Under the pieces are notes generated by a model that saw nothing but the letters and a program-made list of their open reading frames with translations, was not told the DNA's origin and made no database searches. 64,000 bases of DNA from Sulfuriferula nivalis (lineage in GTDB: Bacteria; Pseudomonadota; Gammaproteobacteria; Burkholderiales; Sulfuriferulaceae): the NCBI RefSeq assembly GCF_009937995.1, contig NZ_AP021881.1, positions 558,001 to 622,000 of the forward strand. Reading direction: 5' to 3'. The position numbers and the translations under genes are program-made. Below are positions 1 to 16,626 of the stretch, one piece after another. How positions within the stretch are numbered: the stretch's first letter is position 1; each line of letters begins with the position of its first letter.

Positions 1-1593
1 GTTGAGCATATCGAATCACTTGATATTGATGAAGTGAAAGTTAGAACTGCGTTAACCTGCGAAACACGTTATGGTTTATGCGCCAAGTGTTATGGCCGAG
101 ATTTAGGTCGTGGTTATCTGGTGAACGTCGGTGAGGCTGTGGGTGTGATCGCTGCTCAGTCGATTGGTGAGCCAGGTACTCAGTTGACCATGCGTACGTT
201 CCACATCGGTGGTGCTGCATCGCGTTCAGCCGCAATTAGTCAACTTGAATCTAAGTCAGCTGGTGAGGTGGTGTTTAGCCCTGCGATGCGTTATGTCACA
301 AGTGTTAAAGGTGAAGATATCGCTATTGTACGTAGTGGTGAAATTATCATTATGGGTGAAAACGGTAGAGAACGTGAGCGCCATAAAGTGCCTTACGGAG
401 CGACCTTAACCACCAAGAATGGTGACAAGATTAAAGCTGGCCATGTAATGGCGATGTGGGATCCACATACACGTCCGATTATTACCGAATATGCAGGACG
501 CATACGTTTTGAAAACGTTGAAGAAGGTTCTACTGTTGCAAAACAAATTGATGATGTAACTGGCTTGTCAACTTTGGTTGTTATCGATCCTAAGCGTCGT
601 GCTGGTGTGGCGAGTAAAGGGTTACGTCCACAAGTTAAACTTCTGGATGATGCCGGAGTAGAAGTTAAAATGGCAGGCGGTGAAACCCCTGTTAATATAA
701 CTTTCCAAATTGGCGCTATTATCACGGTTAAGGATGGACAAGATGTTGGTGTTGGCGAGGTATTAGCACGTATTCCACAAGAGTCATCTAAAACTCGAGA
801 TATTACTGGTGGTTTGCCACGAGTAGCAGAATTGTTTGAAGCGCGTTCACCTAAGGATGCTGGTGTGTTAGCTCCAGTTACAGGTACCGTTTCATTTGGT
901 AAAGATACTAAGGGTAAACAACGCTTAGTAATTACCGATATGGATGGTCAGGCGCATGAATATCTGATACCAAAAGAAAAACACGTTACTGCGCATGATG
1001 GTCAGGTGGTAAACAAGGGCGAAACCATAGTTGATGGTCCAGCAGATCCACACGATATTCTTGCGTTAAAGGGTGTTGCGGAATTGGCTCGATATATCAC
1101 TGATGAAGTGCAGGATGTATATCGTTTGCAAGGCGTTAAGATTAACGATAAGCACATCGAAGTTATCGTGCGTCAGATGTTGCGTCGTGTAAGTGTTGTC
1201 GATGTTGGCAATACTAAATTCATTCAAGGCGAACAAGTTGAGCGTGCTGAACTGCTAATCGAAAATGAGCGCGTAGTTGCGGAAGGTAAAGAACCAGCAA
1301 CGTTTGATTATGTATTGCTAGGTATTACCAAAGCTTCACTTTCTACAGATTCATTCATCTCTGCGGCTTCGTTCCAAGAAACAACGAGAGTGTTAACCGA
1401 AGCTGCAATTATGGGTAAACGTGATGAGCTGCGCGGACTGAAAGAAAACGTTATTGTGGGTCGCTTAATCCCAGCGGGTACGGGTTTGGCTTATCACAAT
1501 GCACGACGTATGCAGAAATTAGGTTTAGATATAGCTACTGAATCTGATATTTTTGTAACACCTGAAACTGTTGATACCGAGCAGTCGGCTTGA
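1..1593 (+). CDS. rpoC: DNA-directed RNA polymerase subunit beta' (3' part)
   Basis: The reading frame is open from base 1, so the gene begins upstream of the window; 530 C-terminal residues are visible. Beta' carries the polymerase active site, but the NADFDGD metal-binding motif lies in the missing part. Visible are three cysteines of the second zinc site ([13 protein letters not shown], near base 58-97) and the trigger-loop/bridge region with [16 protein letters not shown] (about bases 166-213). The C-terminal part with the [14 protein letters not shown] motif is intact and the stop is TGA. It is followed by the str genes on the same strand after a 156-base hairpin-rich gap. The identification is secure; only the 5' end is missing. 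Confidence 0.98.
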
Positions 1594-1608
1594 CACTAGT
1601 TAAGTAAG

Positions 1609-1653
1609 CCTATAAAATTCATCGTCTTTTTTACCGAATATGAATTTTATAGG
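1609..1653 (+). repeat. 14-bp perfect inverted repeat in the rpoC-rpsL gap
   Basis: The arm at 1609-1622 (CCTATAAAATTCAT) is the exact reverse complement of 1640-1653, with a 17-base loop that contains a T6 run. The repeat is AT-rich and is not followed by a T tract, so it is not a textbook intrinsic terminator. It could be an RNA-processing hairpin or a partial terminator between the rpoBC and str transcription units. Confidence 0.6.
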
Positions 1654-1672
1654 TAAATATTTAGTAATTTAA

Positions 1673-1694
1673 CGTACTTGTGCGAGCAAGTACG
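1673..1694 (+). repeat. 8-bp hairpin upstream of rpsL
   Basis: CGTACTTG at 1673-1680 pairs exactly with CAAGTACG at 1687-1694 around a 6-base loop. It lies 55 bases upstream of the rpsL start and is the second stem-loop in this gap. It may belong to the rpsL leader. Its function is not known. Confidence 0.5.
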
Positions 1695-1749
1695 CTACAC
1701 AGCATCCTTTTTTAGGGTGTGCGCGTAATTTATTTGGAATCGAGATAGT

Positions 1750-2127
1750 ATGCCTACAGTCAATCAGTTGGTGCGTAAACCACGTGCTGCAAAGCGCGTG
1801 AAAAGTAAAGTCCCTGCCCTTGAAGCTTGCCCACAAAAACGTGGTGTTTGCACACGGGTTTATACAACGACACCTAAAAAACCAAACTCAGCGTTGCGTA
1901 AAGTTGCACGTGTACGTTTGACCAACGGTTTCGAAGTAAGTAGTTATATTGGTGGTGAAGGCCATAACCTGCAAGAACACTCGGTCGTATTGATCCGTGG
2001 TGGTCGTGTTAAGGATTTGCCTGGTGTTCGTTACCATACAGTTCGTGGTAGTTTGGATACCGCTGGCGTTAAAGATCGTAAACAGAGTCGTTCTAAATAC
2101 GGTACTAAGCGTCCTAAGAAAGCTTAA
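1750..2127 (+). CDS. rpsL: 30S ribosomal protein S12
   Basis: This 125-residue protein matches the usual S12 length of 123-125. S12 sits at the decoding centre and controls accuracy. The family motifs [14 protein letters not shown] and [13 protein letters not shown] are intact. Both lysines that are changed in classic streptomycin-resistant mutants (PKKPNS and GRVKDL) are present, so the allele looks wild type. It is the first gene of the str block and is followed 84 bases later by rpsG. Confidence 0.98.
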
Positions 2128-2151
2128 GTTAGTTTTTAATTGGTGTAGGGT

Positions 2152-2178
2152 TGCGGTAAAAGCGCGACGCGCGCCGCA
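2152..2178 (+). promoter_or_regulatory. GC-rich stem-loop in the rpsL-rpsG gap (possible S7 feedback site)
   Basis: TGCGG at 2152-2156 pairs with CCGCA at 2174-2178 and encloses a short GCGC/GCGC hairpin (2162-2165 with 2169-2172). It sits 33 bases before the rpsG start in an 84-base intercistronic space. In E. coli the S12-S7 intercistronic RNA is the binding site for S7 feedback control. The position and structure suggest the same role here, but the sequence match was not tested. Confidence 0.4.
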
Positions 2179-2211
2179 TTCCAGCATTAATGTAGTATTT
2201 GAGAGGTAGTT

Positions 2212-2682
2212 ATGCCAAGACGTAGAGAAGTGCCCAAGCGCGATGTGTTGCCAGATCCAAAATTTGGCAATCAAGATGTTGCTAAATTCGTAAATGTGTT
2301 GATGTCCAGCGGTAAGAAATCTGTTGCTGAACGCATTATTTATGGCGCGTTTGAGCAGATGGGTAGTAAATCAGGTAAAGATCCTGTTGAGATGTTTTTG
2401 TTGGCGTTGAATAACGTGCGTCCGGTAGTTGAAGTTAAGAGCCGTCGTGTAGGTGGTGCTAACTATCAGGTTCCTGTAGAGGTTCGTCCGGCTCGTCGTT
2501 CAGCATTGGCTATGCGCTGGTTAAAAGAAGCTGCACGTAAACGTGGTGAGAAATCCATGGGTATGCGTCTTGCTGGTGAATTGATGGACGCTTCTGAAGG
2601 TCGTGGTGGTGCGATGAAAAAGCGTGATGAAGTTCATCGTATGGCTGAAGCAAATAAAGCATTCTCGCATTTCCGTTTTTAA
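2212..2682 (+). CDS. rpsG: 30S ribosomal protein S7
   Basis: The 156-residue protein matches the typical bacterial S7 length. S7 nucleates assembly of the 30S head and contacts E-site tRNA. It begins [18 protein letters not shown] and has the conserved [16 protein letters not shown] segment. A GAGAGG ribosome-binding site lies about 6 bases before the ATG. It lies between rpsL and fusA in the standard str order. Confidence 0.98.
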
Positions 2683-2686
2683 TTTA

Positions 2687-2708
2687 ACTGCCAGTTTATG
2701 CTGGCAGT
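2687..2708 (+). repeat. 8-bp hairpin between rpsG and fusA
   Basis: ACTGCCAG at 2687-2694 pairs exactly with CTGGCAGT at 2701-2708 over a 6-base loop. It fills most of the 46-base rpsG-fusA gap. It has no following T tract, so processing or attenuation is more likely than full termination. Confidence 0.5.
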
Positions 2709-2728
2709 CTTAACTGGGTAGTAAAAAA

Positions 2729-4819
2729 GTGGCACGTAAAACTCCTATAGAACGTTATCGTAACATTGGTATCAGCGCACATATTGACGCTGGTAAAACA
2801 ACGACTACCGAACGTATCCTGTATTACACAGGTGTTTCGCATAAAATCGGTGAAGTTCATGATGGTGCTGCAACCATGGACTGGATGGAGCAAGAGCAAG
2901 AGCGCGGAATTACCATTACTTCTGCTGCTACAACTTGCTTCTGGAAAGGTATGGACAATAACTACCCAGAGCATCATATCAATATTATCGACACGCCGGG
3001 ACACGTAGACTTCACTATTGAAGTTGAGCGCTCGATGCGCGTGTTGGATGGCGCTTGTATGGTTTACTGTGCTGTTGGTGGTGTTCAACCGCAATCTGAA
3101 ACCGTTTGGCGTCAAGCTAATAAATATGGTGTGCCGCGTTTGGCTTTCGTAAACAAAATGGATCGTACTGGTGCGAATTTCATGAAAGTTTACGAACAAA
3201 TGCGCACTAGACTTAAGGCGAATGTAATTCCTATACAGATACCTATTGGTGCTGAGGAAAACTTTGCTGGTGTGGTTGATTTGGTAAAGATGAAAGCTAT
3301 CTACTGGGATGACTCTACCCAGGGTATGAAATTTGACGAGCGTGAAATTCCAGCTGAGTTGTTGGATGAATGTACGTCATGGCGTGAAAAAATGGTAGAA
3401 GCAGCTGCTGAGGCTAGCGAAGAGTTAATGGATAAGTATTTGGAAGAAGGTGATCTTTCAGTTGCTGAAATTAAGAGTGCGTTGCGTATTCGTACCATTG
3501 CAAGCGAAATCATGCCCATGATGTGTGGATCCGCGTTCAAGAACAAGGGTGTTCAGGCTATGTTGGACGCCGTAATTGATTACCTGCCTTCACCTAAAGA
3601 CATTCCACCGGTTAAGGGTGAATTGGAAGATGGTAGTGAAGGTGAGCGTAAGGCAGAAGACACTGAGCCTTTTGCTGCTTTGGCATTTAAGATTATGACT
3701 GATCCGTTTGTTGGTCAGTTGATATTCTTCCGCGTATATTCTGGTTCGCTCAATTCAGGTGATTCAGTTTATAACCCTATTAAGGGTAAAAAGGAGCGTA
3801 TCGGCCGTATTCTGCAGATGCATGCTAACCAACGCGCTGAAATTAAAGAAGTGTTGGCAGGTGATATTGCTGCTGCAGTTGGTTTGAAAGAGGCTACAAC
3901 TGGTGATACTTTGTGTGACCTGAATAAAACTATTATCTTGGAACGTATGATATTCCCTGAGCCGGTTATTCACGTTGCAGTAGAGCCTAAAACTAAGGCC
4001 GACCAAGAAAAAATGGGTATGGCGCTGAACCGTTTAGCTCAGGAAGATCCATCTTTCCGTGTTCGTACCGATGAAGAAACAGGTCAGACTATTATTTCTG
4101 GTATGGGCGAATTGCACCTGGAAATTTTGGTTGATCGTATGCGTCGCGAATTTAACGTGGAAGCTAATGTGGGTGCACCGCAAGTGGCTTATCGTGAAGC
4201 AATTCGCAAGGCTGTCGAAGTCGAAGGCAAGTTTGTTAAGCAGTCTGGTGGTAAGGGTCAGTACGGTCACGTATGGTTGAAAATGGAACCTAATGAGCAA
4301 GGTAAAGGCTTCGAATTTATTGATGCGATTAAGGGCGGTACGGTTCCACGTGAATTTATTCCTGCTGTAGAAAAAGGCTTGCGTGAAACATTACCAAATG
4401 GTGTCTTGGCTGGCTTCCCTGTGGTTGATGTCAAGGTTACGCTGTTTGATGGTTCATACCACGACGTTGACTCTAACGAGAATGCATTCAAGATGGCCGC
4501 GTCTATGGGTTTCAAAGACGGCATGCGTAAAGCTAGCCCAGTGCTTCTAGAGCCTATGATGGCTGTAGAAGTTGAAACACCTGAGGATTATATGGGTGAT
4601 GTGATGGGTGATTTGTCTTCACGTCGCGGTATTATTCAGGGTATGGATGACACGCCAAGCGGTAAAGTAATTAAAGCTGAAGTGCCATTGGCTGAAATGT
4701 TTGGTTACTCGACAACTGTTCGCTCTATGAGCCAGGGTCGTGCAACCTACAGCATGGAATTTAAACACTATGCTGAAGCGCCTAAGAATGTTACTGAAGC
4801 AATTATCAACAAAAAATAA
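2729..4819 (+). CDS. fusA: Translation elongation factor G
   Basis: This 696-residue GTPase drives ribosomal translocation and recycling. It starts at GTG ([14 protein letters not shown]), the usual EF-G N-terminus, and no upstream start fits better. The G motifs are complete: [12 protein letters not shown] (P-loop, about residues 18-29), DTPGHVDF, and [10 protein letters not shown]. Domain IV with the [16 protein letters not shown] segment and domain V follow at full length. It lies between rpsG and tuf, 22 bases upstream of the tuf ATG. Confidence 0.98.
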
Positions 4820-4841
4820 TCTGACTATAAGGAATTAAATC

Positions 4842-6032
4842 ATGGCAAAAGGCAAGTTTGAACGTACCAAGCCGCACGTAAACGTAGGCACAATTGGTCA
4901 CGTTGACCACGGTAAAACCACATTAACAGCAGCGATTGCGACTATCCTCTCGAAGAAATTCGGCGGTGAAGCCAAGAACTATGCTGATATTGACTCAGCG
5001 CCAGAAGAAAAAGCGCGTGGTATTACTATCAATACTTCACACGTAGAATACGAAACAGAAAAGCGTCACTACGCACACGTAGACTGTCCAGGTCACGCTG
5101 ATTACATCAAAAACATGATTACCGGCGCTGCACAAATGGACGGCGCAATCTTGGTTGTATCCGCTGCTGATGGTCCTATGCCACAGACTCGCGAACACAT
5201 CCTGTTGGCACGTCAAGTTGGCGTACCATACATCATCGTCTACATGAACAAAGCAGACATGGTTGATGATGCAGAATTGCTGGAACTCGTAGAAATGGAA
5301 ATTCGTGAATTGCTCAGCAAATACGACTTCCCCGGTGACGACACACCAGTTATCACCGGTTCAGCATTGAAAGCCCTTGAAGGCGACCAATCAGAAATCG
5401 GCGAAGCATCCATCTTCCGTTTGGCAGATGCGTTAGACAGCTACATCCCAGAACCGGAACGCGCAGTAGATGGCGCATTCCTGATGCCAGTTGAAGACGT
5501 ATTCTCAATTTCTGGTCGTGGTACCGTAGTAACAGGTCGTATTGAACGCGGCATCGTAAAAGTTGGTGAAGAAGTTGAAATCATCGGCTTGAAGCCAACC
5601 GTTAAAACCACCTGTACCGGTGTTGAAATGTTCCGCAAGCTGCTAGACCAAGGTCAAGCAGGTGACAACGTAGGTCTGTTGTTGCGTGGTACCAAGCGCG
5701 AAGACGTAGAACGTGGTCAAGTTTTGGCTAAACCAGGTTCAATCAAGCCGCATACAAAATTCAGTGCAGAAATCTACGTACTGTCTAAAGATGAAGGTGG
5801 TCGTCATACACCATTCTTCAATGGTTACCGTCCACAGTTCTACTTCCGTACAACTGACGTAACTGGCGCAGTAGATTTACCAGCAGGTACCGAAATGGTG
5901 ATGCCAGGTGATAACGTATCAGTATCAGTAGCACTGATCGCACCTATCGCTATGGAAGAAGGTCTGCGTTTCGCGATTCGCGAAGGTGGTCGTACTGTAG
6001 GTGCTGGTGTGGTCGCTAAAGTAATCGAGTAA
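4842..6032 (+). CDS. tuf: Translation elongation factor Tu
   Basis: This 396-residue GTPase delivers aminoacyl-tRNA to the ribosome. [18 protein letters not shown] and MNKADMVDD form the nucleotide site. A clear AAGGAA ribosome-binding site precedes the ATG. Its codon choice differs visibly from fusA and the ribosomal genes on either side: Val is mostly GTA, and Asn, His and Tyr are mostly C-ending. Many betaproteobacteria carry a second tuf near rpoB; none is visible here. The gene is closed by a hairpin that also carries the next promoter. Confidence 0.98.
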
Positions 6033-6038
6033 ATATAC

Positions 6039-6067
6039 TTGCTGTAAAACATAAAGGGCGGTATAAT
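6039..6067 (+). promoter_or_regulatory. Candidate S10-operon promoter
   Basis: TTGCTG at 6039-6044 and a consensus TATAAT at 6062-6067 are 17 bases apart. The predicted start, near 6074, is about 37 bases before the rpsJ ATG. The -10 box lies in the loop of the hairpin that follows tuf. This is a prediction from spacing and consensus only. Confidence 0.6.
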
Positions 6068-6077
6068 TCCGCCCTTT
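6053..6077 (+). terminator. tuf terminator-like hairpin
   Basis: AAAGGGCGG at 6053-6061 pairs perfectly with CCGCCCTTT at 6069-6077 around a 7-base loop. It starts 21 bases after the tuf stop. The arm ends in TTT, but the following bases are CGTATTTG, so termination may be partial. Confidence 0.6.
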
Positions 6078-6110
6078 CGTATTTGAAGTTCTGCTCTTTA
6101 AGGTGTGGTT

Positions 6111-6419
6111 ATGAAAAATCAAAAAATTCGTATTCGTCTCAAGGCGTTTGACTATCGTCTAATTGATCAGTCAGCATTAGAGATTGTCGAAACAGCAAAG
6201 CGTACTGGCGCAGTAGTTAAGGGTCCAGTTCCATTGCCAACTTCTATAGAGCGCTTCGATGTGCTCCGCTCTCCTCACGTTAACAAAACTTCTCGTGATC
6301 AATTTGAAATCCGTACGCATTTGCGTCTTATGGATATCATCGACCCAACAGATAAAACTGTTGATGCGTTGATGAAATTAGATCTGCCAGCTGGTGTTGA
6401 AGTAGAAATCAAGGTTTAG
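6111..6419 (+). CDS. rpsJ: 30S ribosomal protein S10
   Basis: The 102-residue protein is S10, a 30S head protein that also works in antitermination as NusE. The start at 6111 gives [19 protein letters not shown], which matches the family; an in-frame GTG six bases earlier is less likely. The motifs [16 protein letters not shown] and [12 protein letters not shown] are conserved. It heads the S10 block and is followed by a 79-base gap with a weak 6-bp hairpin (6430-6447). Confidence 0.97.
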
Positions 6420-6498
6420 TATTCCCGTACCAAGACGGTTTTCTTGGGGTATAAAGCTGGTCAATTGTAATCAGCGCCTTTTTGTTAAGGATAGAAAA

Positions 6499-7143
6499 AT
6501 GAGTTTAGGACTCGTCGGTCGTAAAGTAGGCATGACCCGACTCTTTGCTGAGGATGGTAGTACCATTCCAGTAACGGTGTTGGATGTGTCGAATAACCGC
6601 GTAACTCAGATTAAAACAACTGAAACTGATGGCTATAATGCGGTTCAGGTTGCTTTTGGTGTGCGTCGCGCTAGTCGTGTAAACAAATCAGCTGCTGGTC
6701 ATCTTGCTAAGGCGGGTGTTGAGGCTGGTCGTTTGCTAAAAGAATTTCGTTTGCCAGCAACTGAAGCTCCGGCATTGGTTGCGGGTAGCGTAGTTAGTGT
6801 TGAAATATTTCAGCCTGGTCAACTGGTTGATGTTACTGGAACTACTCTGGGTAAGGGTTTTTCTGGTGTAATTAAGCGTCATCACTTCTCATCTAACCGT
6901 GCAAGTCACGGTAACTCACGTTCGCACAATACGCCAGGTTCAATTGGTCAAGCGCAAGATCCAGGTCGTGTTTTCCCTGGTAAGCGTATGGCTGGTCAAT
7001 TGGGTGCTGTGCAGCGTACTGTGCAAAAACTGGAAGTGGTCCGTATAGATACTGAACGTCAATTGATATTGGTCAAAGGTGCTGTTCCAGGGTCTAAAGG
7101 CGGTCATGTTGTTGTTCGCCCTAGTGTGAAGGTAGGTGCCTAA
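6499..7143 (+). CDS. rplC: 50S ribosomal protein L3
   Basis: At 214 residues this is a typical L3, which binds near the 3' end of 23S rRNA and helps start 50S assembly. It begins [16 protein letters not shown] and contains [20 protein letters not shown], the loop that reaches toward the peptidyl-transferase centre. An AAGG ribosome-binding site sits 8 bases before the ATG. Its TAA stop shares one base with the rplD start. Confidence 0.98.
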
Positions 7144-7766
7144 TGGAACTAAAGATGATTAACGACAAAGGTCAGGACGCTACTGCTTTAGTTGCGTCTG
7201 ATGCTTTGTTCGGTCGTGAATATAATGAAGCCTTGGTGCATCAGATTGTTACTGCTTATATGGCTAATGCCCGTAGCGGTAATCGTGCACAAAAGGATCG
7301 TCGCACAGTACATCACAGTACCAAAAAGCCATGGCGTCAAAAAGGAACGGGTCGTGCTCGTTCTGGTATGACTTCAAGCCCTATTTGGCGTGGGGGTGGT
7401 CGTGCGTTTCCAAATAGCCCTGATGAGAATTTTACACAGAAGATTAACCGTAAAATGTATCGCGCAGGTATTGCGGCTATATTGTCCAAATTGGTTAGCG
7501 AAGGAAGTCTAAGTGTTGTTGATTCGTTAACAGTTGAAGCACCTAAGACCAAATTGCTTGCTAACAAATTGAAGGCGATGGGATTTAGTGATCGCGTTCT
7601 AATAGTTACTGATAACTTAGATGACGATTTGTGGATGGCTTCACGCAATTTGCCTAATGTAATGATTGTTGAGCCTCGTCATATTGATCCAGTGAGTATG
7701 GTTCGCTTTGGTCGTGTATTGATGACAAGCGCTGCTGTTAAAGCTGTTGAGGAGATGTTGGCATGA
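7143..7766 (+). CDS. rplD: 50S ribosomal protein L4
   Basis: At 207 residues this is L4, which lines the polypeptide exit tunnel. The tunnel-loop segment [15 protein letters not shown] is conserved. The start ATG overlaps the rplC stop by one base (TAATG), implying translational coupling, and the 3' end overlaps rplW by four bases (ATGA). In E. coli L4 represses the S10 operon through a long rpsJ leader. The leader here is short, so the same mechanism is not evident. Confidence 0.97.
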
Positions 7767-8074
7767 GTACATTAAAATTTAGTGATGCACGCTTGTTGCA
7801 AGTTATCCTGGCGCCGCAAATTTCTGAAAAGAGCACTTACGTTGCAGATAAACACGAGCAGGTGATCTTCCGTGTTTGTCCTGATGCAACCAAGCCTGAA
7901 GTTAAAGCAGCTGTTGAAATGCTGTTTAAGGTTGAGGTCAGTAGTGTAAATATGCTTGTTGTTAAAGGTAAGCAAAAGCGTTTTGGTCGTTTTATGGGTC
8001 GCCGTAGCGATTGGAAAAAAGCTTTTGTGTGCCTGAAACCTGGGCAAGAGATTAACTTTGCGGCGGGTCAGTGA
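7763..8074 (+). CDS. rplW: 50S ribosomal protein L23
   Basis: The 103-residue protein is L23, located at the tunnel exit where SRP and trigger factor dock. The motifs [14 protein letters not shown] and [16 protein letters not shown] are typical. It starts inside the rplD stop (ATGA overlap) and is followed by rplB after 10 bases. Confidence 0.97.
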
Positions 8075-8084
8075 GGAGTAAAAC

Positions 8085-8912
8085 ATGGCACTTATTAAAG
8101 TAAAACCAACATCCCCTGGTCGCCGTTCATTAGTTAAAGTTGTGACGCCAGATTTGCATAAAGGCAAACCTGTCGCTTCATTGCTGGCTCGTAAAACTAA
8201 AACGGCTGGCCGTAATAATAACGGTCATATTACTACCCGTCATATGGGTGGTGGTCATAAACAGCACTATCGCTTAGTAGACTTCCGTCGTAATAAAGAT
8301 GGTGTTCCAGCTAAGGTTGAGCGTTTGGAATATGATCCTAACCGTTCCGCAAATTTGGCGTTGTTATGCTATGCGGATGGTGAACGTGCATACATTATCG
8401 CCCCTAAGGGTGTTTCTGCTGGAATGCAGTTGATGAATGGTTCTGATGCGCCTATCAAGGCTGGCAATGCATTGCCACTTCGTAATATTCCAGTTGGTAG
8501 TACGGTTCATTGTATAGAAATGATGCCAGGCAAAGGTGCGCAAATCGCACGTTCTGCTGGTACTTCTGCCCAGTTGCTAGCTCGTGAAGGCGCTTATGCT
8601 CAACTGCGCTTACGCTCAGGTGAGATTCGTAAAGTGCATGTGGATTGCCGCGCTACTATCGGTGAAGTCGGTAATGAAGAACATTCATTACGTTCTATCG
8701 GTAAAGCGGGCGCTAATCGCTGGCGTGGTATTAGACCTACCGTTCGTGGTGTTGTAATGAACCCGGTTGATCACCCACACGGTGGTGGTGAGGGTAAGAC
8801 AGCAGCTGGACGTCATCCAGTTAGTCCTTGGGGTGTTCCTGCCAAGGGTTACCGTACTCGTAACAACAAACGCACTAGCGGTATGATTGTGCGTAGTCGT
8901 CATAAACGTTAA
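8085..8912 (+). CDS. rplB: 50S ribosomal protein L2
   Basis: At 275 residues this is a standard L2, needed for subunit joining and peptidyl-transferase activity. The functional loop [12 protein letters not shown] near the C-terminus is intact, as are [19 protein letters not shown] and the basic C-terminus. A GAGGAG ribosome-binding site lies just before the ATG. Confidence 0.98.
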
Positions 8913-8924
8913 AAGGTCATAACT

Positions 8925-9200
8925 ATGCCACGTTCGATTAAAAAAGGTCCGTTTGTTGACGCGCACCTACAGAAAAAGGTTGAGGCAGCACGCGCAACCA
9001 ACGACAAGCGTCCAATTAAAACTTGGTCACGTCGTTCAACAGTTTTGCCTGATTTTATTGGTCTTACTATAGCTGTACATAATGGTAAGCAACACATACC
9101 TGTTTTTGTATCTGAAAACATGGTAGGTCATAAACTAGGTGAGTTTTCTTTGACCCGTACTTTTAAAGGCCATGCGGCTGATAAGAAAGCGAAGAAATAG
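8925..9200 (+). CDS. rpsS: 30S ribosomal protein S19
   Basis: The 91-residue protein begins [19 protein letters not shown] and has the conserved [15 protein letters not shown] and [11 protein letters not shown] motifs of S19, a 30S head protein that touches A-site tRNA. The stop is six bases before the first rplV ATG. Confidence 0.98.
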
Positions 9201-9209
9201 GAGCCTATG

Positions 9210-9542
9210 ATGAAAGTTTCAGCTATTTTACGTGGCACCCATTTGTCAGCACAAAAAGCTCGCTTAGTCGCTGATCAAATACGTGGTCTGCCAGTGGATC
9301 AGGCGCTTAATATTTTGGCTTTTAGCCCTAAAAAAGGTGCTGTTGTTATCAAGAAGGTTCTGAATTCTGCTATTGCTAATGCTGAGCATAATGAAGGCGC
9401 TGATATCGACGAATTGAAAGTCGCGACTATCACAGTTGATGAGGGTCCTTCTATGAAGCGCTTCATGGCTCGTGCAAAGGGTCGTGGCAATCGTATTATT
9501 AAACAGACTTGTCATATTGCTGTGACAGTCGGCGACGAATAA
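9210..9542 (+). CDS. rplV: 50S ribosomal protein L22
   Basis: This is L22, which extends a loop into the exit tunnel; the loop with [20 protein letters not shown] is complete. Two adjacent ATG codons (9207 and 9210) could start it. The GGAG site at 9200-9203 is 3 bases from the first and 6 from the second, so 9210 is preferred, giving 110 residues. Confidence 0.96.
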
Positions 9543-9551
9543 GGAACGGTA

Positions 9552-10262
9552 ATGGGACAGAAGATACATCCGATAGGTTTCCGTCTTCCAGTAACGCGCA
9601 ACTGGAGTTCGAAGTGGTTTGCTAACAGCCATGACTTCGCAGCTACGCTAAACGAAGATATTAAAGTTCGCACATTTCTTAAAAAGAAATTAGCTAATGC
9701 ATCAGTCAGTAAGATTGTGATTGAGCGTCCGGCTAAAAATGCACGCATCACCATACACAGCGCTAGACCTGGTGTTGTTATTGGTAAAAAAGGTGAAGAC
9801 ATCGAAGTGTTGAAAGCGCAACTGCAGAAAATGATGGCAGTTCCAGTGCATGTCAATATCGAAGAAGTTCGTAAACCTGAAATTGATGCTCAATTGATCG
9901 CGGCAAATATTGCTGGTCAGTTGGAAAAACGTATTATGTTCCGTCGTGCTATGAAACGTGCCATGCAGAATGCAATGCGTCTCGGCGCTCAGGGTATTAA
10001 AATCATGAGTTCTGGTCGTTTGAACGGTGCTGAAATCGCTCGTACTGAGTGGTATCGTGAAGGTCGAGTCCCTTTGCATACACTCCGTGCCGATATCGAT
10101 TATGGTTTTTATGAAGCGTTAACTACTTATGGCATTATTGGCGTAAAAGTTTGGGTTTATAAAGGCGATATGTTAGCAAATGGTGAACAGCCAGTCGTTG
10201 TGCCAACCGAACCAGAGAAACGCGTAAGAAAGCCAGGAGCAAAACATGCTACAGCCAGCTAG
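9552..10262 (+). CDS. rpsC: 30S ribosomal protein S3
   Basis: At 236 residues this is S3, part of the mRNA entry site. It has the N-terminal [16 protein letters not shown], the KH-domain motif [14 protein letters not shown] and the conserved [20 protein letters not shown]. Its last 17 bases overlap the start of rplP, a tighter packing than in E. coli. Confidence 0.98.
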
Positions 10263-10662
10263 AAGAAAGTACCGTAAAGAACAAAAGGGTCGCAATACTG
10301 GTATTGCTACCCGTGGTAACAAAGTCAGTTTTGGTGATTTTGGTTTGAAAGCTTTGGGTCGTGGTCGTTTGACAGCGCGCCAAATTGAAGCAGCACGTCG
10401 TGCAATGACTCGTTATATTAAGCGTGGCGGACGTATTTGGATTCGTGTTTTCCCTGACAAACCAATTTCAGAGAAACCAGCTGAAGTACGTATGGGTAAC
10501 GGTAAAGGTAATCCAGAGTATTACGTTGCTGAGATTCAGCCAGGTAAAATGCTCTACGAAATGGACGGTGTTGATGAAGTAATTGCACGTGAGGCATTCC
10601 GTCTTGCTGCTGCTAAATTACCAATTCAGACTACTTTTGTAACTAGAATGATAGGTGGCTAA
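10246..10662 (+). CDS. rplP: 50S ribosomal protein L16
   Basis: At 138 residues this is a typical L16, beginning [18 protein letters not shown]16 helps position A-site tRNA on the large subunit. A GGAG ribosome-binding site lies inside the rpsC coding region. The conserved segments [19 protein letters not shown] and [20 protein letters not shown] are present. Confidence 0.98.
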
Positions 10663-10868
10663 TGATGATGGCGAGCGAATTGCGTGCTAAATCCACGGCA
10701 GATGTTAAATTGGAATTGATTGAATTGTTGCGTGCTCAGTTCAGCTTGCGTATGCAAGTTGCAACTCAGCAAACTAACAAAACCAGCGAGCTTGGTAAAT
10801 TGCGTAAAAGTATTGCACGAGTCCGCACTGTGTTACGTGAGAATGAACTGAAAGCGGTGAATAAATGA
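10662..10868 (+). CDS. rpmC: 50S ribosomal protein L29
   Basis: This is L29, a small helical protein at the tunnel exit next to L23. The sequence contains [18 protein letters not shown] and a conserved [12 protein letters not shown] helix. Three consecutive ATG codons (10662, 10665, 10668) could start it. The first overlaps the rplP stop (TAATG); the third gives the most family-like N-terminus (MASELRAKS, 66 residues). The 3' end overlaps rpsQ by four bases. Confidence 0.95.
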
Positions 10869-11134
10869 GTGCAGCTGAAAACAAAGTTGTTCGTAGTATG
10901 ACTGGTCGTGTAGTGAGCGACAAGATGGATAAAACAGTAACTGTGCTTGTTGAACGTAAAGTTAAACATCCGGTTCTTGGTAAAGTTATTCGTCGCTCTA
11001 AGAAATACCATGCTCATGACCAGAATAACGATTATCACGAAGGTGATTTAGTGATTATTGAGGAAAGTAAGCCAATATCCAAGACTAAAACTTGGATGGT
11101 TGCTAAATTAATATCTAAAGCGGCAGCTGTATAA
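10865..11134 (+). CDS. rpsQ: 30S ribosomal protein S17
   Basis: At 89 residues this is S17, a primary 16S-binding protein with an OB fold. [20 protein letters not shown] and [16 protein letters not shown] are characteristic. It overlaps rpmC by ATGA and ends the S10 block; a 134-base gap follows before the spc genes. Confidence 0.97.
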
Positions 11135-11137
11135 CAC

Positions 11138-11166
11138 TTGCACTTTTAGTTAAGTGCTGTTATACT
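11138..11166 (+). promoter_or_regulatory. Candidate spc-operon promoter
   Basis: TTGCAC at 11138-11143 and TATACT at 11161-11166 are 17 bases apart, starting 3 bases after the rpsQ stop. The predicted start near 11173 leaves a leader of about 95 bases before rplN. E. coli has its spc promoter at the same place in the gene order. Confidence 0.55.
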
Positions 11167-11181
11167 CTTTTGCTTTCGTCC

Positions 11182-11241
11182 TGCCGGTAACGGCATCTTC
11201 CCGTACGGGTCCAAAACTAGCTGTCTTGACAGGGAACCCTG
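11182..11241 (+). promoter_or_regulatory. Structured leader of rplN (several small hairpins)
   Basis: Several short perfect hairpins lie in 60 bases: TGCCG/CGGCA with a GTAA tetraloop (11182-11195), the palindrome CCCGTACGGG (11200-11209), and two mutually exclusive stems, CTGTC/GACAG (11221-11232) and CAGGG/CCCTG (11230-11241). The last two share bases, so only one can form at a time. Role unknown; it may be a leader for feedback control of the spc genes. Confidence 0.4.
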
Positions 11242-11268
11242 GCTCGGCGGGTTAAGTTGGAGAGTTAA

Positions 11269-11637
11269 ATGATACAAATGCAGTCTAGGTTGGATGTGGC
11301 TGACAATACAGGTGCGCGGTCTGTTATGTGCATCAAAGTGTTGGGTGGCTCAAAGCGTCGCTATGCAAGCATAGGCGACATTATTAAAGTTGCTATTAAA
11401 GATGCAGCCCCTCGCGGCCGTGTCAAAAAAGGCGATGTATATAATGCTGTCGTAGTGCGTACTGCTAAGGGTGTTCGTCGTCCTGATGGTTCTTTGGTTA
11501 AATTTGATAACAATGCCGCGGTATTGCTTAACAATAAACTCGAGCCAATTGGTACACGCATCTTTGGGCCAGTTACCCGCGAATTGCGCACTGAGCGATT
11601 TATGAAAATCGTTTCATTGGCACCAGAAGTGCTTTAA
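11269..11637 (+). CDS. rplN: 50S ribosomal protein L14
   Basis: At 122 residues this is L14, which forms intersubunit bridges and binds the silencing factor RsfS. The motifs [20 protein letters not shown] and [20 protein letters not shown] are conserved. A GGAGAG ribosome-binding site precedes the ATG. It heads the spc block. Confidence 0.98.
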
Positions 11638-11646
11638 GGGGGTTGC

Positions 11647-11964
11647 GTGAACAAGATACGTAAAGGTGATAATGTTATTGTTATCACAGGAAAAGATAAG
11701 GGCAAGCGCGGTACTGTGCTGGCTGTAAAGAGCGATACTCATTTGTTGGTTGAGGGCGTTAATACTGTCAAGAAGCACGTAAAGCCTAATCCTGTTAAAG
11801 GTGATGCGGGTGGTATTCTTGTTAAAGAAATGCCTATGCAAATCTCGAACGTGGCTTTATTTAATTCCGCTACCCAGCGTGCTGATCGTGTTGGATTTAA
11901 GTTTTTAGAAGACGGACGTAAAGTTCGGATTTTTAAATCCTCCAACGAAGTCGTCGATATTTAA
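11647..11964 (+). CDS. rplX: 50S ribosomal protein L24
   Basis: The 105-residue protein has the KOW-type N-terminus [19 protein letters not shown] of L24, an early 50S assembly factor. It starts at GTG (11647) shortly after a GGGGG run in the rplN-rplX gap. The usual CPKC insertion seen in some L24 proteins is not present. Confidence 0.97.
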
Positions 11965-11973
11965 GGAATTATA

Positions 11974-12513
11974 ATGGCTCGTTTACAAGAATTCTATAAC
12001 ACCACGGTTGTGCCTGAATTGGTTAAACAGTTCGGTTATAAGTCTGTGATGGAAGTCCCTATGATCGAAAAGATCACGCTCAATATGGGTGTTGGTGAGG
12101 CTGTTGCGGATAAGAAGGTGATGGACCACGCTGTTGGTGATATGCAGAAGATTGCAGGTCAAAAGCCGGTGGTGACAAAATCTCGTAAATCTATCGCGGG
12201 TTTCAAGATTCGTGATGATTATCCTGTAGGTTGTATGGTTACTTTGCGTCGTGAACGTATGTTTGAGTTTCTCGATCGTTTAGTTACCGTAGCAATCCCG
12301 CGTATTCGTGACTTCCGTGGTTTGTCAGGTAAGTCATTTGACGGTCGCGGTAACTACAACATGGGTGTGCGTGAGCAGATCATATTCCCAGAAATTGAAT
12401 ATGATAAAATCGATGCTTTGCGTGGTATGAATATTACCATTACTACAACCGCAAAAACTGATGCTGAAGCGCGTGCTTTGCTTGCTGCATTTAAGTTTCC
12501 ATTTAAGAACTGA
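11974..12513 (+). CDS. rplE: 50S ribosomal protein L5
   Basis: At 179 residues this is L5, which binds 5S rRNA and contacts P-site tRNA. It begins [17 protein letters not shown], and [18 protein letters not shown] and [17 protein letters not shown] are typical. A TAAGGA ribosome-binding site lies 8 bases before the ATG. Confidence 0.98.
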
Positions 12514-12520
12514 GGATGTC

Positions 12521-12826
12521 ATGGCTAAACTAGCAGTGATTAATCGCGATTTAAAACGTCGCGCCACGGTAGAGAAATTTGCTGCAAAACGTGCTGAAAT
12601 TATGGCAACAATTGCAAATACTGATTTGTCTGAAGAAGTGCGTTTCGAAGCGCGTCTGAAATTGCAAAAGTTACCACGCAATGCAAGTCCTGTTCGTTTG
12701 CGCAATCGTTGTGCGCTGACTGGGCGTCCGCGTGGTGTGTTCAGGAAGTTTGGTCTGGGTCGCATTAAATTGCGTGAACACGCTATGCGTGGTGAAGTGC
12801 CAGGCATGGTTAAGGCCAGCTGGTAA
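12521..12826 (+). CDS. rpsN: 30S ribosomal protein S14
   Basis: This is the long, zinc-free S14 type of 101 residues, with no CxxC pairs. The start at 12521 ([14 protein letters not shown]) follows GAGGATGTC and matches the family. The conserved C-terminal part [19 protein letters not shown] is present. An in-frame upstream ATG at 12461 lies inside rplE and is rejected as the start. Confidence 0.97.
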
Positions 12827-12841
12827 GCGGGAGAGTATCGA

Positions 12842-13237
12842 ATGAGTATGAGTGATCCAATTGCAGATATGCTAACGCGTATACGCAATGCACAAAGTGT
12901 AGAGAAATCTACCGTTAAAATGCCTAGCTCTAAAGTCAAATTGGCTATTGCTAAAGTTTTAAAAGACGAAGGTTATGTCGATGATTTTTCAGTCGATGAT
13001 AATTCTGGCAAACCCGAATTGCATATAGGTTTAAAATATTATGCAGGTCGTCCCGTTATTGAAAAAATTGAACGGGTAAGCCGTCCCGGACTGCGCATAT
13101 ATAAAAGCAGTCAGGAACTTCCAAAAGTGATGAATGGACTCGGTATTGCTATTATCTCCACCTCAGGTGGGTTAATGACTGACCGCAAAGCTCGCGCAAA
13201 TGGCGTGGGTGGCGAAGTTCTTTGCATCGTAGCTTGA
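12842..13237 (+). CDS. rpsH: 30S ribosomal protein S8
   Basis: At 131 residues this is S8, a primary 16S-binding protein that in E. coli also represses the spc operon. It begins [18 protein letters not shown] and ends with the conserved [20 protein letters not shown] region. A GGGAGAG ribosome-binding site precedes the start. Confidence 0.98.
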
Positions 13238-13249
13238 TGAGGAAATGCA

Positions 13250-13783
13250 ATGTCTCGTGTAGCTAAAAATCCAGTAGCAGTGCCTGCTGGTGTAGAAGTA
13301 ACAATTAACGCGAATGTTGTCGCAATTAAAGGGCCTTTAGGTACTTTAGAGCAAGCAGCAAACGCAAATGTGGTAATTGCTCGTGAGGGTGACACTTTAA
13401 CATTTGCGCCCGCTGATGATTCGATTCGTGCAAATGCAATGTCCGGTACTATGCGTGCTTTGTTAGCAAACATGGTTCAGGGTGTTACTAAAGGATTTGA
13501 GCGTAAATTACAATTGGTTGGTGTTGGTTATCGTGCGCAAGCTGCGGGCGATGTGCTTAACTTAACCTTGGGTTATTCGCATCCTATTGCACATAAAATG
13601 CCTGAAGGCATCAAGGTTGAAACGCCAAGCCAAACGGAAATACTTATTAAAGGTATGGATCGTCAAAAGGTTGGTCAAGTTGCTGCTGACGTTCGCGCAT
13701 ATCGTAAACCTGAGCCTTATAAAGGTAAAGGTGTGCGTTATTCCGATGAAGTGGTTGTGATTAAAGAAACCAAGAAAAAGTAA
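13250..13783 (+). CDS. rplF: 50S ribosomal protein L6
   Basis: At 177 residues this is L6, near the factor-binding site of the 50[18 protein letters not shown] and the C-terminal [16 protein letters not shown] motif are typical. It follows rpsH by 12 bases with GAGGAA as ribosome-binding site. Confidence 0.98.
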
Positions 13784-13792
13784 GGTTAAATC

Positions 13793-14146
13793 ATGGATAA
13801 GAATACAGCGCGTCTGCGCAGAGCACGCAAAACCCGTGCCCGCATTGCAGATCAAAAAGCCACACGTTTGGTTGTTTATCGTTCAAATTGCAATATTTAT
13901 GCGCAAATTATCGATGCAACGGGTGGTAAAGTTTTAGCAAGTGCATCTAGTGTTGAAGTCGATGTTCGTAAAGAATTGGCTAGCGGTGGTAACGTTGCTG
14001 CTGCGACTTTGGTAGGTAAGCGCATTGCAGAAAAAGCTAAACAGGCTGGTATTGTTGAAGTTGCTTTCGACCGTTCTGGTTTCCGTTATCATGGTCGCGT
14101 TAAAGCGTTGGCTGATGCCGCGCGTGAAAACGGTCTGAACTTCTAA
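13793..14146 (+). CDS. rplR: 50S ribosomal protein L18
   Basis: At 117 residues this is L18, which binds 5S rRNA together with L5. The [16 protein letters not shown] segment and the C-terminal [20 protein letters not shown] motif are conserved. It follows rplF by 9 bases. Confidence 0.98.
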
Positions 14147-14159
14147 TTGGGGTGTACAT

Positions 14160-14669
14160 ATGGCAAAGATAGAAACTAACCAAGAGAGTAGTGATGGTTT
14201 GCGCGAGAAGATGGTCGCCGTTAATCGCGTTACTAAAGTGGTTAAAGGTGGACGTATTTTAGGTTTCGCTGCATTGACTGTTGTTGGTGATGGTGATGGC
14301 GGTATTGGTATGGGCAAGGGCAAGTCCCGTGAAGTGCCAGTTGCTGTACAAAAGGCTATGGATGAAGCTCGTCGTAAATTGACTAAAGTTAATTTAAAGA
14401 ACGGAACCTTGCACCACGCAGTTATTGGTAAACATGGTGCTGCTGTAGTTTATATGCAGCCAGCGTCTGAAGGTACTGGTATCATTGCTGGTGGTCCGAT
14501 GCGTGCTGTTTTCGAAGTGATGGGTGTTCATAACATTCTTGCTAAGTGCATAGGATCTACTAATCCTTACAACGTTGTTCGTGCAACGATTAACGGTCTA
14601 ATGCAAATAAACTCTCCTTCAGAAATTGCTGCTAAGCGTGGTAAATCTGTTGCTGAAATTACGGAGTAA
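14160..14669 (+). CDS. rpsE: 30S ribosomal protein S5
   Basis: At 169 residues this is S5, involved in mRNA entry and decoding accuracy. It has the N-terminal [20 protein letters not shown] and the conserved [19 protein letters not shown]. The loop residues around VVKGGR, where spectinomycin-resistance changes occur in other bacteria, look wild type. Confidence 0.98.
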
Positions 14670-14672
14670 GCG

Positions 14673-14861
14673 ATGACTGCTACTGCAAAAAAAATTAAAG
14701 TGACGTTGGTTAAAAGCGTTATTGGTACGAAGCAAGATCACCGTGCTTGTGTTAAAGGCTTGGGTCTGCGTCGCTTAAATCATACCGTAGAAGTGTTGGA
14801 TACTCCTTCAAATCGCGGCATGATCAATAAAGTTTATTATCTCGTTAAATGCGAGGGTTGA
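14673..14861 (+). CDS. rpmD: 50S ribosomal protein L30
   Basis: The 62-residue protein has the L30 core: [20 protein letters not shown], then the conserved [13 protein letters not shown]. It lies 3 bases after rpsE and 1 base before rplO, indicating tight coupling. Confidence 0.97.
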
Positions 14862-14862
14862 T

Positions 14863-15297
14863 ATGGAATTAAATAATTTAAAGCCAGCTGCTGGTAGTAA
14901 CAAACCTTGTCGTCGTGTTGGTCGCGGTATTGGTAGTGGTCTAGGGAAAACGGCTGGTCGTGGTCATAAGGGCCAAAAATCACGTACTGGTGGATTCCAT
15001 AAGGTTGGTTTTGAAGGCGGTCAAATGCCTATTCAACGCCGTCTACCTAAACGTGGTTTCGTTTCATTGACAGCTGGTGATACTGCTGAAGTTTTGTTGA
15101 GCGTAATTGATAAGTTGCCTATTGATCAGATTGATATTCTGGTTTTGAAGCAAGCTGGTTTGATTTCAGCTAGAGCGAAAACTGCCAAAATTGTTATGAC
15201 CGGTACTATTTCTCGTGCAGTAACGCTTCAAGGTTTAACTGCTACTAAAGCTGCTCGTGCTGCTATCGAAGCGGCAGGTGGAAGTTTTCAGGACTAA
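14863..15297 (+). CDS. rplO: 50S ribosomal protein L15
   Basis: At 144 residues this is L15, a late 50S assembly protein. It begins [14 protein letters not shown] and contains the glycine-rich [19 protein letters not shown] and [24 protein letters not shown] ribosome-binding site lies within the end of rpmD. Confidence 0.98.
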
Positions 15298-15300
15298 ATC

Positions 15301-16626
15301 TTGACTGCTACTAAAGCTAAAGTTGGTGCTGCCAACAAATTCGGTGATCTAAAGCAACGTCTATGGTTTTTAATAGGTGCTTTGGTGGTATATCGTATTG
15401 GTGCTCATATACCTGTTCCAGGTATAGACCCGGTGGCACTAGAGCATTTATTTAAAGCGCAACAGGGTGGAATCTTAGGCATGTTTAACATGTTCTCAGG
15501 TGGTGCTTTGTCACGATTTACTGTTTTTGCTTTGGGAATAATGCCTTATATTTCCGCATCTATCATTATGCAATTGCTGACTGTAGTTTCACCGCAGCTA
15601 GAAGCTTTGAAGAAAGAGGGCGATTCGGGTCGTCGTAAAATTACACAATATACTCGTTATGGCACTGTAGCTTTGGCGCTGTTTCAAGGGTTAGGTATTG
15701 CAGTTGCATTGGAGTCACAGGCTGGTTTAGTTATAGATCCTGGCTTCTTGTTTCGAATTACCGCTGTAATGACTTTAGTTGCTGGCACGATGTTTCTAAT
15801 GTGGCTGGGTGAGCAGATAACTGAACGCGGTATTGGTAATGGTATATCGATGATCATCTTTGCAGGTATAGTTGCAGGTTTGCCGCACGCAATCGGTGGT
15901 ACTCTAGAGTTGACTAGTACTGGTGCATTTTCAATTCCTTTGGTGTTGATGTTGTTTGTCGCAGTTATTTTAGTAACGGCTTTGGTTGTATTTGTTGAGC
16001 GCGGTCAGCGTAAAGTACTTGTTAATTATGCCAAGCGACAAGTTGGTAATAAGGTTTATGGTGGTCAAAGTTCACATTTGCCTTTGAAGTTGAATATGGC
16101 TGGTGTAATCCCACCTATCTTTGCTTCTAGTATTATTTTGTTTCCTGCCACATTGGCAGGGTGGTTTGGTAGTCATGAAAGTATGAGTTGGTTGAAGGAT
16201 GTGGGTTCTGCACTTTCACCTGGTCAGCCAATATACGTGATTCTTTATGCAACTGCTATTGTGTTCTTTTGTTTTTTCTACACTGCGTTGGTGTTCAATC
16301 CAAAAGAGACTGCAGATAATTTGAAGAAAAGTGGTGCATTTGTTCCAGGTATACGTCCTGGTGAGCAAACATCAAAGTACATAGATAAGATAATGACAAG
16401 GCTAACGTTGATAGGTGCAATTTACATTACCTTGGTTTGTTTACTACCTGAATTCTTGATAGTGAAGTTTAATGTGCCTTTTTACTTTGGCGGTACTTCA
16501 TTGTTAATTATTGTGGTTGTAACTATGGATTTCATGGCGCAAGTTCAAGCCTATGTCATGTCGCAACAATATGAAGGTTTGCTCAAAAAGGCAAATTTTA
16601 AAGGTAATGGTTTTGTTTCACGTTAA
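15301..16626 (+). CDS. secY: Protein translocase subunit SecY
   Basis: This 441-residue inner-membrane protein forms the Sec channel with SecE and SecG. About ten hydrophobic helices are visible, starting with [20 protein letters not shown]. The TTG start at 15301 has an AGGA site 7 bases upstream and gives [20 protein letters not shown]. The conserved [13 protein letters not shown] and the cytosolic loop with [13 protein letters not shown] are present. It is followed directly by infA. Confidence 0.98.

Follow-up and report, generated by a model that had tools for sequence, protein, structure and literature searches.

In Sulfuriferula nivalis, 78 bases separate the end of tuf (6032) from the ATG of rpsJ (6111), and this short junction raises the question of where the RNA of one operon ends and that of the next begins. 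An earlier note on this DNA had proposed that termination of tuf and initiation of the S10 genes use the same 40 bases, and that polymerase arriving from tuf would interfere with initiation. Here the junction is analysed within a window of 64,000 nucleotides (the whole stretch of DNA under study, to whose first letter all positions refer), among congeners and across the order. With moderate confidence, we propose that it holds a partial terminator with a promoter nested in its hairpin, together with feedback by S10 through a boxA-like element.

Organization of the tuf-rpsJ junction

The features of the junction are as follows.

4842..6032, + strand: tuf (EF-Tu), an ORF of 396 aa and one of two genomic copies
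6039..6044, + strand: TTGCTG, -35 element of the promoter presumed for the S10 operon (sequence and conservation among congeners)
6045-6061, + strand: 17-nt spacer between TTGCTG and TATAAT
6053..6061, + strand: 5' arm of the hairpin, AAAGGGCGG (RNA fold; pairing kept with changed bases elsewhere)
6062..6067, + strand: -10 element TATAAT, which together with T6068 forms the hairpin loop TATAATT (6062-6068)
6069..6077, + strand: 3' arm of the hairpin, CCGCCCTTT, which also holds the inferred start region of the S10 RNA (about 6074, by spacing)
6075..6084, + strand: TTTCGTATTT, the broken U-tract of what is presumed to be a partial terminator (sequence and terminator index)
6092..6101, + strand: boxA-like element TGCTCTTTAA, a presumed NusB/S10 site (rRNA leaders; conservation before rpsJ)
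6100..6103, + strand: AAGG, a Shine-Dalgarno-like word of rpsJ that overlaps with the boxA-like element
6111..6419, + strand: rpsJ (ribosomal protein S10 = NusE); relatives keep ATG 6111, and the ORF lister chose the alternative start GTG 6105

The second tuf copy of the genome (G000:C1:546448-547635) encodes a protein that is 100% identical. Compared over their last 60 bases (5973-6035 in the window, and L003), the two copies are identical through the stop codon and diverge directly after it, a pattern that suggests gene conversion of the tuf copies limited to the coding region. Elsewhere in the window, a near-consensus promoter, TTGACA-17-TAAAAT (11 of 12 bases), lies at 1590-1618, at the end of an rpoC-like ORF (which ends at 1593) and before rpsL.

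A promoter-like pair overlaps a hairpin

The perfect 9-bp stem downstream of tuf, the TATAAT in its loop and the TTGCTG 17 bases upstream are exactly where the earlier note placed them, and the RNA fold agrees, yielding exactly this stem (z -2.05; of 200 shuffled versions of the 101 nt, 4 fold equally well). The stem contains six G-C pairs, has a predicted energy of -14.7 kcal/mol and overlaps the promoter pair over 6053-6067. On the + strand of the window, with its 10 exact TATAAT and 214 hexamers matching at least 5 of 6 bases, the stem of 9 bp at 6062 stands alone; the runners-up are stems of 2 bp around the exact hexamers and of 5 bp around those with at least 5/6 matches. The longest stems on the - strand are 3 bp (11 exact hexamers) and 5 bp (242 hexamers with at least 5/6). 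When the + strand was copied 100 times by a first-order Markov model, the longest stem had 8 bp, so that no copy reached 9. Given the unique stem and these copies, we reject a chance origin of the nesting. A repeated palindromic element was also considered and rejected, since the 3.44-Mb genome contains the palindrome only once. No Rfam family was matched at gathering score within positions 1-16000 of the window, and a search for plasmid homologues of the 131-bp junction found none.

TATAAT agrees with the -10 consensus at all six bases. TTGCTG agrees with the -35 consensus at three of six, at a spacing of 17 nt, and because of this a consensus scan that asks for at least 4/6 per hexamer omits the pair. 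The start predicted near 6074 falls in the pyrimidine run CCCTTT (6072-6077), where a purine is absent. We presume a sigma-70-type promoter at TTGCTG/TATAAT, whose activity and start site we infer from the elements and their spacing.

The weak -35 and the missing purine would suit a different reading, namely that the hairpin is an ordinary terminator with a fortuitous TATAAT in its loop, rpsJ being transcribed by read-through or from elsewhere. Congeners speak against it. In the collection used, the family consists of one genus, and rpsJ was recovered in 12 of the 18 genomes of that genus. All 12 carry TTGC and, after 17 nt (18 nt in L096), a -10 element, which is TATAAT in nine and TACAAT in three, and the sequence between the -35 and the stem is variable among them. 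A stem of at least nine contiguous pairs is kept in register in 10 of the 12 (one G-U in L096 counted), whereas in the other two, L098 and L099, it is mostly lost (3 and 4 pairs) and the -35 and -10 are retained. Since the two hexamers are kept amid variable bases, a functional promoter is the better reading, and a fortuitous TATAAT appears very improbable. Because L098 and L099 retain only the -35 and -10, the stem seems more dispensable than the promoter.

Recurrence of the nesting in other lineages

Of 250 genomes surveyed across the order, 235 yielded rpsJ, and from 587 named loci the best 80 were retained. Junctions were read in 152 of 153 cases at first and in 19 of 20 more afterwards, the latter partly picked from families f2, f20 and f24; two loci, L072 and L182, were left unparsed as the script did not find the rpsJ motif. 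An arbitrary 100-base stretch (L157) was excluded from the junction set, the tuf stop was set by hand in 16 loci, and the tuf end is undefined for L063, L166 and L168.

Of the junctions that measure 45 nt or more, 122 in all, 32 carry TTG followed after 16 to 18 nt by a TATAAT-like hexamer. A strict scan, which allowed G-U pairs and let at most one base of the -10 be drawn into the stem, finds a stem of nine or more unbroken pairs with the -10 in its loop in 18 of these 32, a ratio that is not to be read as a frequency because f2 and f20 were sampled deeper after their hairpins had been seen. The remaining 14 promoter-bearing junctions are without a 9-pair stem, one having 8 pairs and 13 at most 6. 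The 18 nested junctions comprise 10 congeners, a Sulfuritalea MAG (L010), a betaproteobacterial MAG (L013), three loci of f2 (L123, L166 and L167) and three of f20 (L138, L169 and L170). The arms vary in sequence between these groups and their complementarity is held in the same register. As judged from the aligned junctions, the nesting recurs with other stem sequences and compensatory changes in two other families and two MAGs. The nested geometry in f1, f2, f20, L010 and L013 does not imply independent origins, and may go back to common inheritance.

The covariation score of the stem is 0.299. Shuffles give 0.140, with none of 500 reaching the score of the stem, and sliding the register gives 0.048-0.150, though such scores can be inflated by kinship between rows. 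Both sides are changed at four of the nine pairs, in 12 cells (18 rows, 17 distinct). As many pairs changed on both sides are seen in 35 of 500 shuffles, which is not clear-cut, and the tally of further pair types is unremarkable (148 of 500 shuffles). The 18 rows of this count represent 23 loci, with identical segments merged, which were picked for a -10 inside or touching a hairpin; they include rows without the stem in register (L098, L099, L032, L159 and L160), and the L138/L169 row has 8 of the 9 pairs. Outside the count are the promoter-bearing loci L012, L036, L045, L048, L085, L112, L116, L171 and L172.

In a test by sequence cluster, the promoter lies in the loop in 5 of 15 clusters against 1.1 expected (P 0.003); this test predates the deeper sampling of f2 and f20, and its thresholds were fixed after the sequences had been read. 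The five clusters are those of L001 (with L010 and L138), L032, L044, L123 and L159, and the hairpins of L032, L044 and L159 are looser and fail the stricter 9-pair scan.

Based on the comparison across lineages, both the -35/-10 pair and the pairing of the arms look selected. It also bears on the possibility that the inverted repeat is a DNA operator, at which a dimeric regulator lying over the -10 would control the S10 promoter. A perfect palindrome centred on a -10 box is in a usual position for an operator, but the arms differ among lineages with the pairing preserved and the palindrome occurs once in the genome, so that we regard an operator as highly unlikely.

Two other layouts were seen in the survey. 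Loci of the Sideroxydans/Gallionella type (L012, L020, L116 and L171-L174) have TACAAT near the tuf stop and a hairpin 3' of the promoter and 5' of the boxA-like core. In loci of the Massilia/Duganella type (Oxalobacteraceae-type; L036, L043, L044, L046, L054 and L056), extended -10-like motifs TGNTAYNNT were found by eye in or beside hairpins; of these loci L044 alone was counted as nested, and by the cluster test only.

Does the hairpin terminate tuf transcription?

The terminator index swings with the stem that is chosen. It is +13 with the 6-bp G+C stem and the tail TTTCGTATTTGAAGT (also recorded as UUUCGUAUUUGAAGU), and -20 with the full 9-bp stem; the sequence 3' of the G+C stem is UUUCGUAUUU and that 3' of the full stem is CGUAUUUG. 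By comparison, the terminator of the other tuf copy scores +39 and its inner stem alone -52, and the nested relatives range from -11 (L010) to +29 (L138), with L123 at +27. A terminator scan found the hairpin terminator-like on the minus strand only, the + strand hairpin being absent from the scan because the tail behind the full stem is CGTATTTG.

Termination is predicted to be partial rather than full because the U-tract is broken, and the hairpin likely ends part of the tuf RNA and is no tight stop. The proposal that tuf termination and S10 initiation use the same 40 bases stands as far as the shared promoter-like pair and hairpin are concerned. Its other half, the hairpin as the tuf terminator, comes out as moderate only, considering the two index values and the loss of the stem in L098 and L099.

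The broken U-tract and the negative index of the full stem could also mean that tuf and rpsJ share an unbroken transcript, in which the hairpin is a structure for 3' stabilisation or processing and to which the promoter just adds S10 RNA. The gap between tuf and rpsJ is shorter than 30 nt, too small for a terminator, in 43 of 152 junctions (e.g., L019, L037, L040, L117, L140 and L141), and in those junctions tuf and the S10 genes therefore probably form one transcription unit. Hairpins that abut the boxA-like core without a U run, as in L017 (index -0.5), would fit a processing structure as well. However, the 3' side is U-rich in the nested lineages, where the index reaches the values given above for L123 and L138, and the hairpin sits where tuf RNA ought to end. 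We consider a processing structure fairly unlikely, and prefer partial termination of tuf.

A strong hairpin of varying sequence abuts the boxA-like core, with no recognised promoter in its loop, in L014, L017, L018, L025, L033 and L058. The U-run of the hairpin continues into the boxA core in L025 and L058, as if a single tract served both.

A boxA-like element precedes rpsJ

The earlier note overlooked a presumed boxA-like NusB/S10 site that extends into the ribosome-binding site of rpsJ. The sequence TGCTCTTTAAGG (6092-6103), which has a single genomic occurrence, ends in the rpsJ Shine-Dalgarno. All three rRNA leaders in this genome hold CGCTCTTTAACA about 190 bases 5' of the 16S gene, and these sites match the consensus GYTCTTTAANA (PMC5725501). 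At the junction, GCTCTTTAAGG matches that consensus at 10 of 11 bases with a final G for A, and because the last consensus base is missed we term the site boxA-like. Its core terminates 11 nt upstream of the rpsJ ATG.

Among the 108 junctions that span 45 nt or more, 94 have a core of the form G[CT]TCTTT no further than 45 nt from the rpsJ start; by sequence cluster the count is 59 of 73 (in 200 shuffles, 0.86 on average and 4 at most). The core was found within 45 nt of rpsJ in none of 44 junctions shorter than 45 nt and at none of the 28 readable rplC starts. In the enlarged set it is present in 107 of 122 junctions; 85 of the 107 have its end 9-13 nt ahead of the ATG, and in 91 of them a Shine-Dalgarno-like purine word starts at most 6 nt from it. 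Genome-wide, the consensus word GYTCTTTAANA occurs 16 times versus 17 for a reversed control, hence without enrichment. The argument rests on position and conservation because the word alone is not commoner than the control. Two boxA-like cores per junction were seen in L100 and in L022, L023, L048 and L049.

As rpsJ encodes S10 (NusE), which binds boxA together with NusB, the site is naturally read as serving feedback on S10 translation. NusB and S10 probably repress the translation of S10 through the boxA-like element.

A model for the junction

We propose that the hairpin at 6053-6077 and the broken U-tract would together serve the str operon as an intrinsic but partial terminator, the loop of which would be the -10 box of a sigma-70-type promoter of the S10 operon. 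RNA derived from tuf carries both arms, so the hairpin could form in it. Since RNA begun near 6074 is without the 5' arm, the terminator would be restricted to tuf RNA, provided that the start is at the position predicted by the spacing. By construction, such a terminator could not act on RNA from the promoter that it contains. The RNA of the S10 operon would consist of the output of its own promoter and some read-through from tuf. Both kinds of RNA would carry the boxA-like element leading into the ribosome-binding site of rpsJ, where NusB with the product of rpsJ itself, S10 (NusE), would repress S10 translation.

The sequence itself shows the geometry of the hairpin and promoter, their conservation and covariation, and the position of the boxA-like element; the degree of termination, the S10 feedback and any interference between the two units are predictions. 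The interference suggested earlier would link the two expression levels in one sense; read-through would couple tuf and S10 expression in the opposite sense.

A further, rather improbable idea is that the junction works as a single integrated device, in which the hairpin-dependent difference between the RNAs, the shared boxA/Shine-Dalgarno region read by NusB and S10, and an effect of the state of the terminator on promoter firing would act together. If so, polymerase stopping at or passing the terminator would alter the firing of the promoter in its loop, S10 would set its own translation as well as the extent of tuf-derived transcription into the S10 operon, and the supply of EF-Tu and of ribosomes would be coupled in many betaproteobacteria. 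The junction offers a compact and testable case of two very highly expressed operons that are kept apart yet tied.

Comparison with known systems

Neither a -10 box in a terminator loop nor the betaproteobacterial tuf-rpsJ junction was found in the literature search, which covered titles and the beginnings of abstracts of the listed matches and few subscription papers, and a comparable nested case is absent from the available parts of PMC2965389, PMC4807359, PMC11109978 and PMC8046335. In the literature searched, neither the nesting of a -10 box in such a hairpin nor a boxA-like element ahead of rpsJ in betaproteobacteria was seen in print.

In E. coli K-12, the tufB-secE junction (one site in one genome) differs in that its terminator loop has 4 nt and the sole TATAAT ahead of secE is found some 80 nt further downstream. 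In Neisseria meningitidis, itself a betaproteobacterium, a terminator of variable strength stands beside a dedicated promoter between cbbA and fHbp, and weak terminators lead to read-through and higher downstream expression (PMC8026042, in excerpt). Unlike at the tuf-rpsJ junction, terminator and promoter are drawn as separate boxes in the excerpted part of that paper, and the genes are unrelated.

The boxA-like element has its parallel in suhB of E. coli, which is repressed through a boxA; according to the accessible portion of PMC5725501, steric occlusion is insufficient as an explanation, and putative boxA elements precede rpsJ in three gammaproteobacterial genera. As in suhB (the same portion), the core is a few nt away from the Shine-Dalgarno of a Nus-factor gene, as rpsJ encodes NusE. 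The junction differs from the cases of PMC5725501 in belonging to the betaproteobacteria (0 mentions in that text), in missing the last consensus base and in being known from sequence. The control of the E. coli S10 operon by L4 and its limited spread are reviewed in PMC10931766, as seen in extracts. If the candidate feedback operates, the S10 operon would in both cases be under one of its own products; the E. coli control uses a long structured leader (extracts of PMC10931766), whereas here about 37 nt would precede the ATG if the start is near 6074. There would be little room for a leader of the L4 type, and the boxA-like element is a candidate for control of the betaproteobacterial S10 operon by S10/NusE.

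A close precedent is in Salmonella, where terminator-promoter overlaps between translation operons, with tuf upstream, matter for expression and fitness (work of 2019, as described in sections of PMC7055797). The junction resembles those overlaps, as far as these sections describe them, in the gene cluster, in the upstream tuf and in the sequence shared by a presumed terminator and the presumed promoter of the next operon; it differs from them in lying between the str and S10 operons, in occurring in betaproteobacteria and in having the -10 itself as the hairpin loop. The general arrangement is already known in related bacteria, and what the tuf-rpsJ junction presents is a variation on it that has been conserved.
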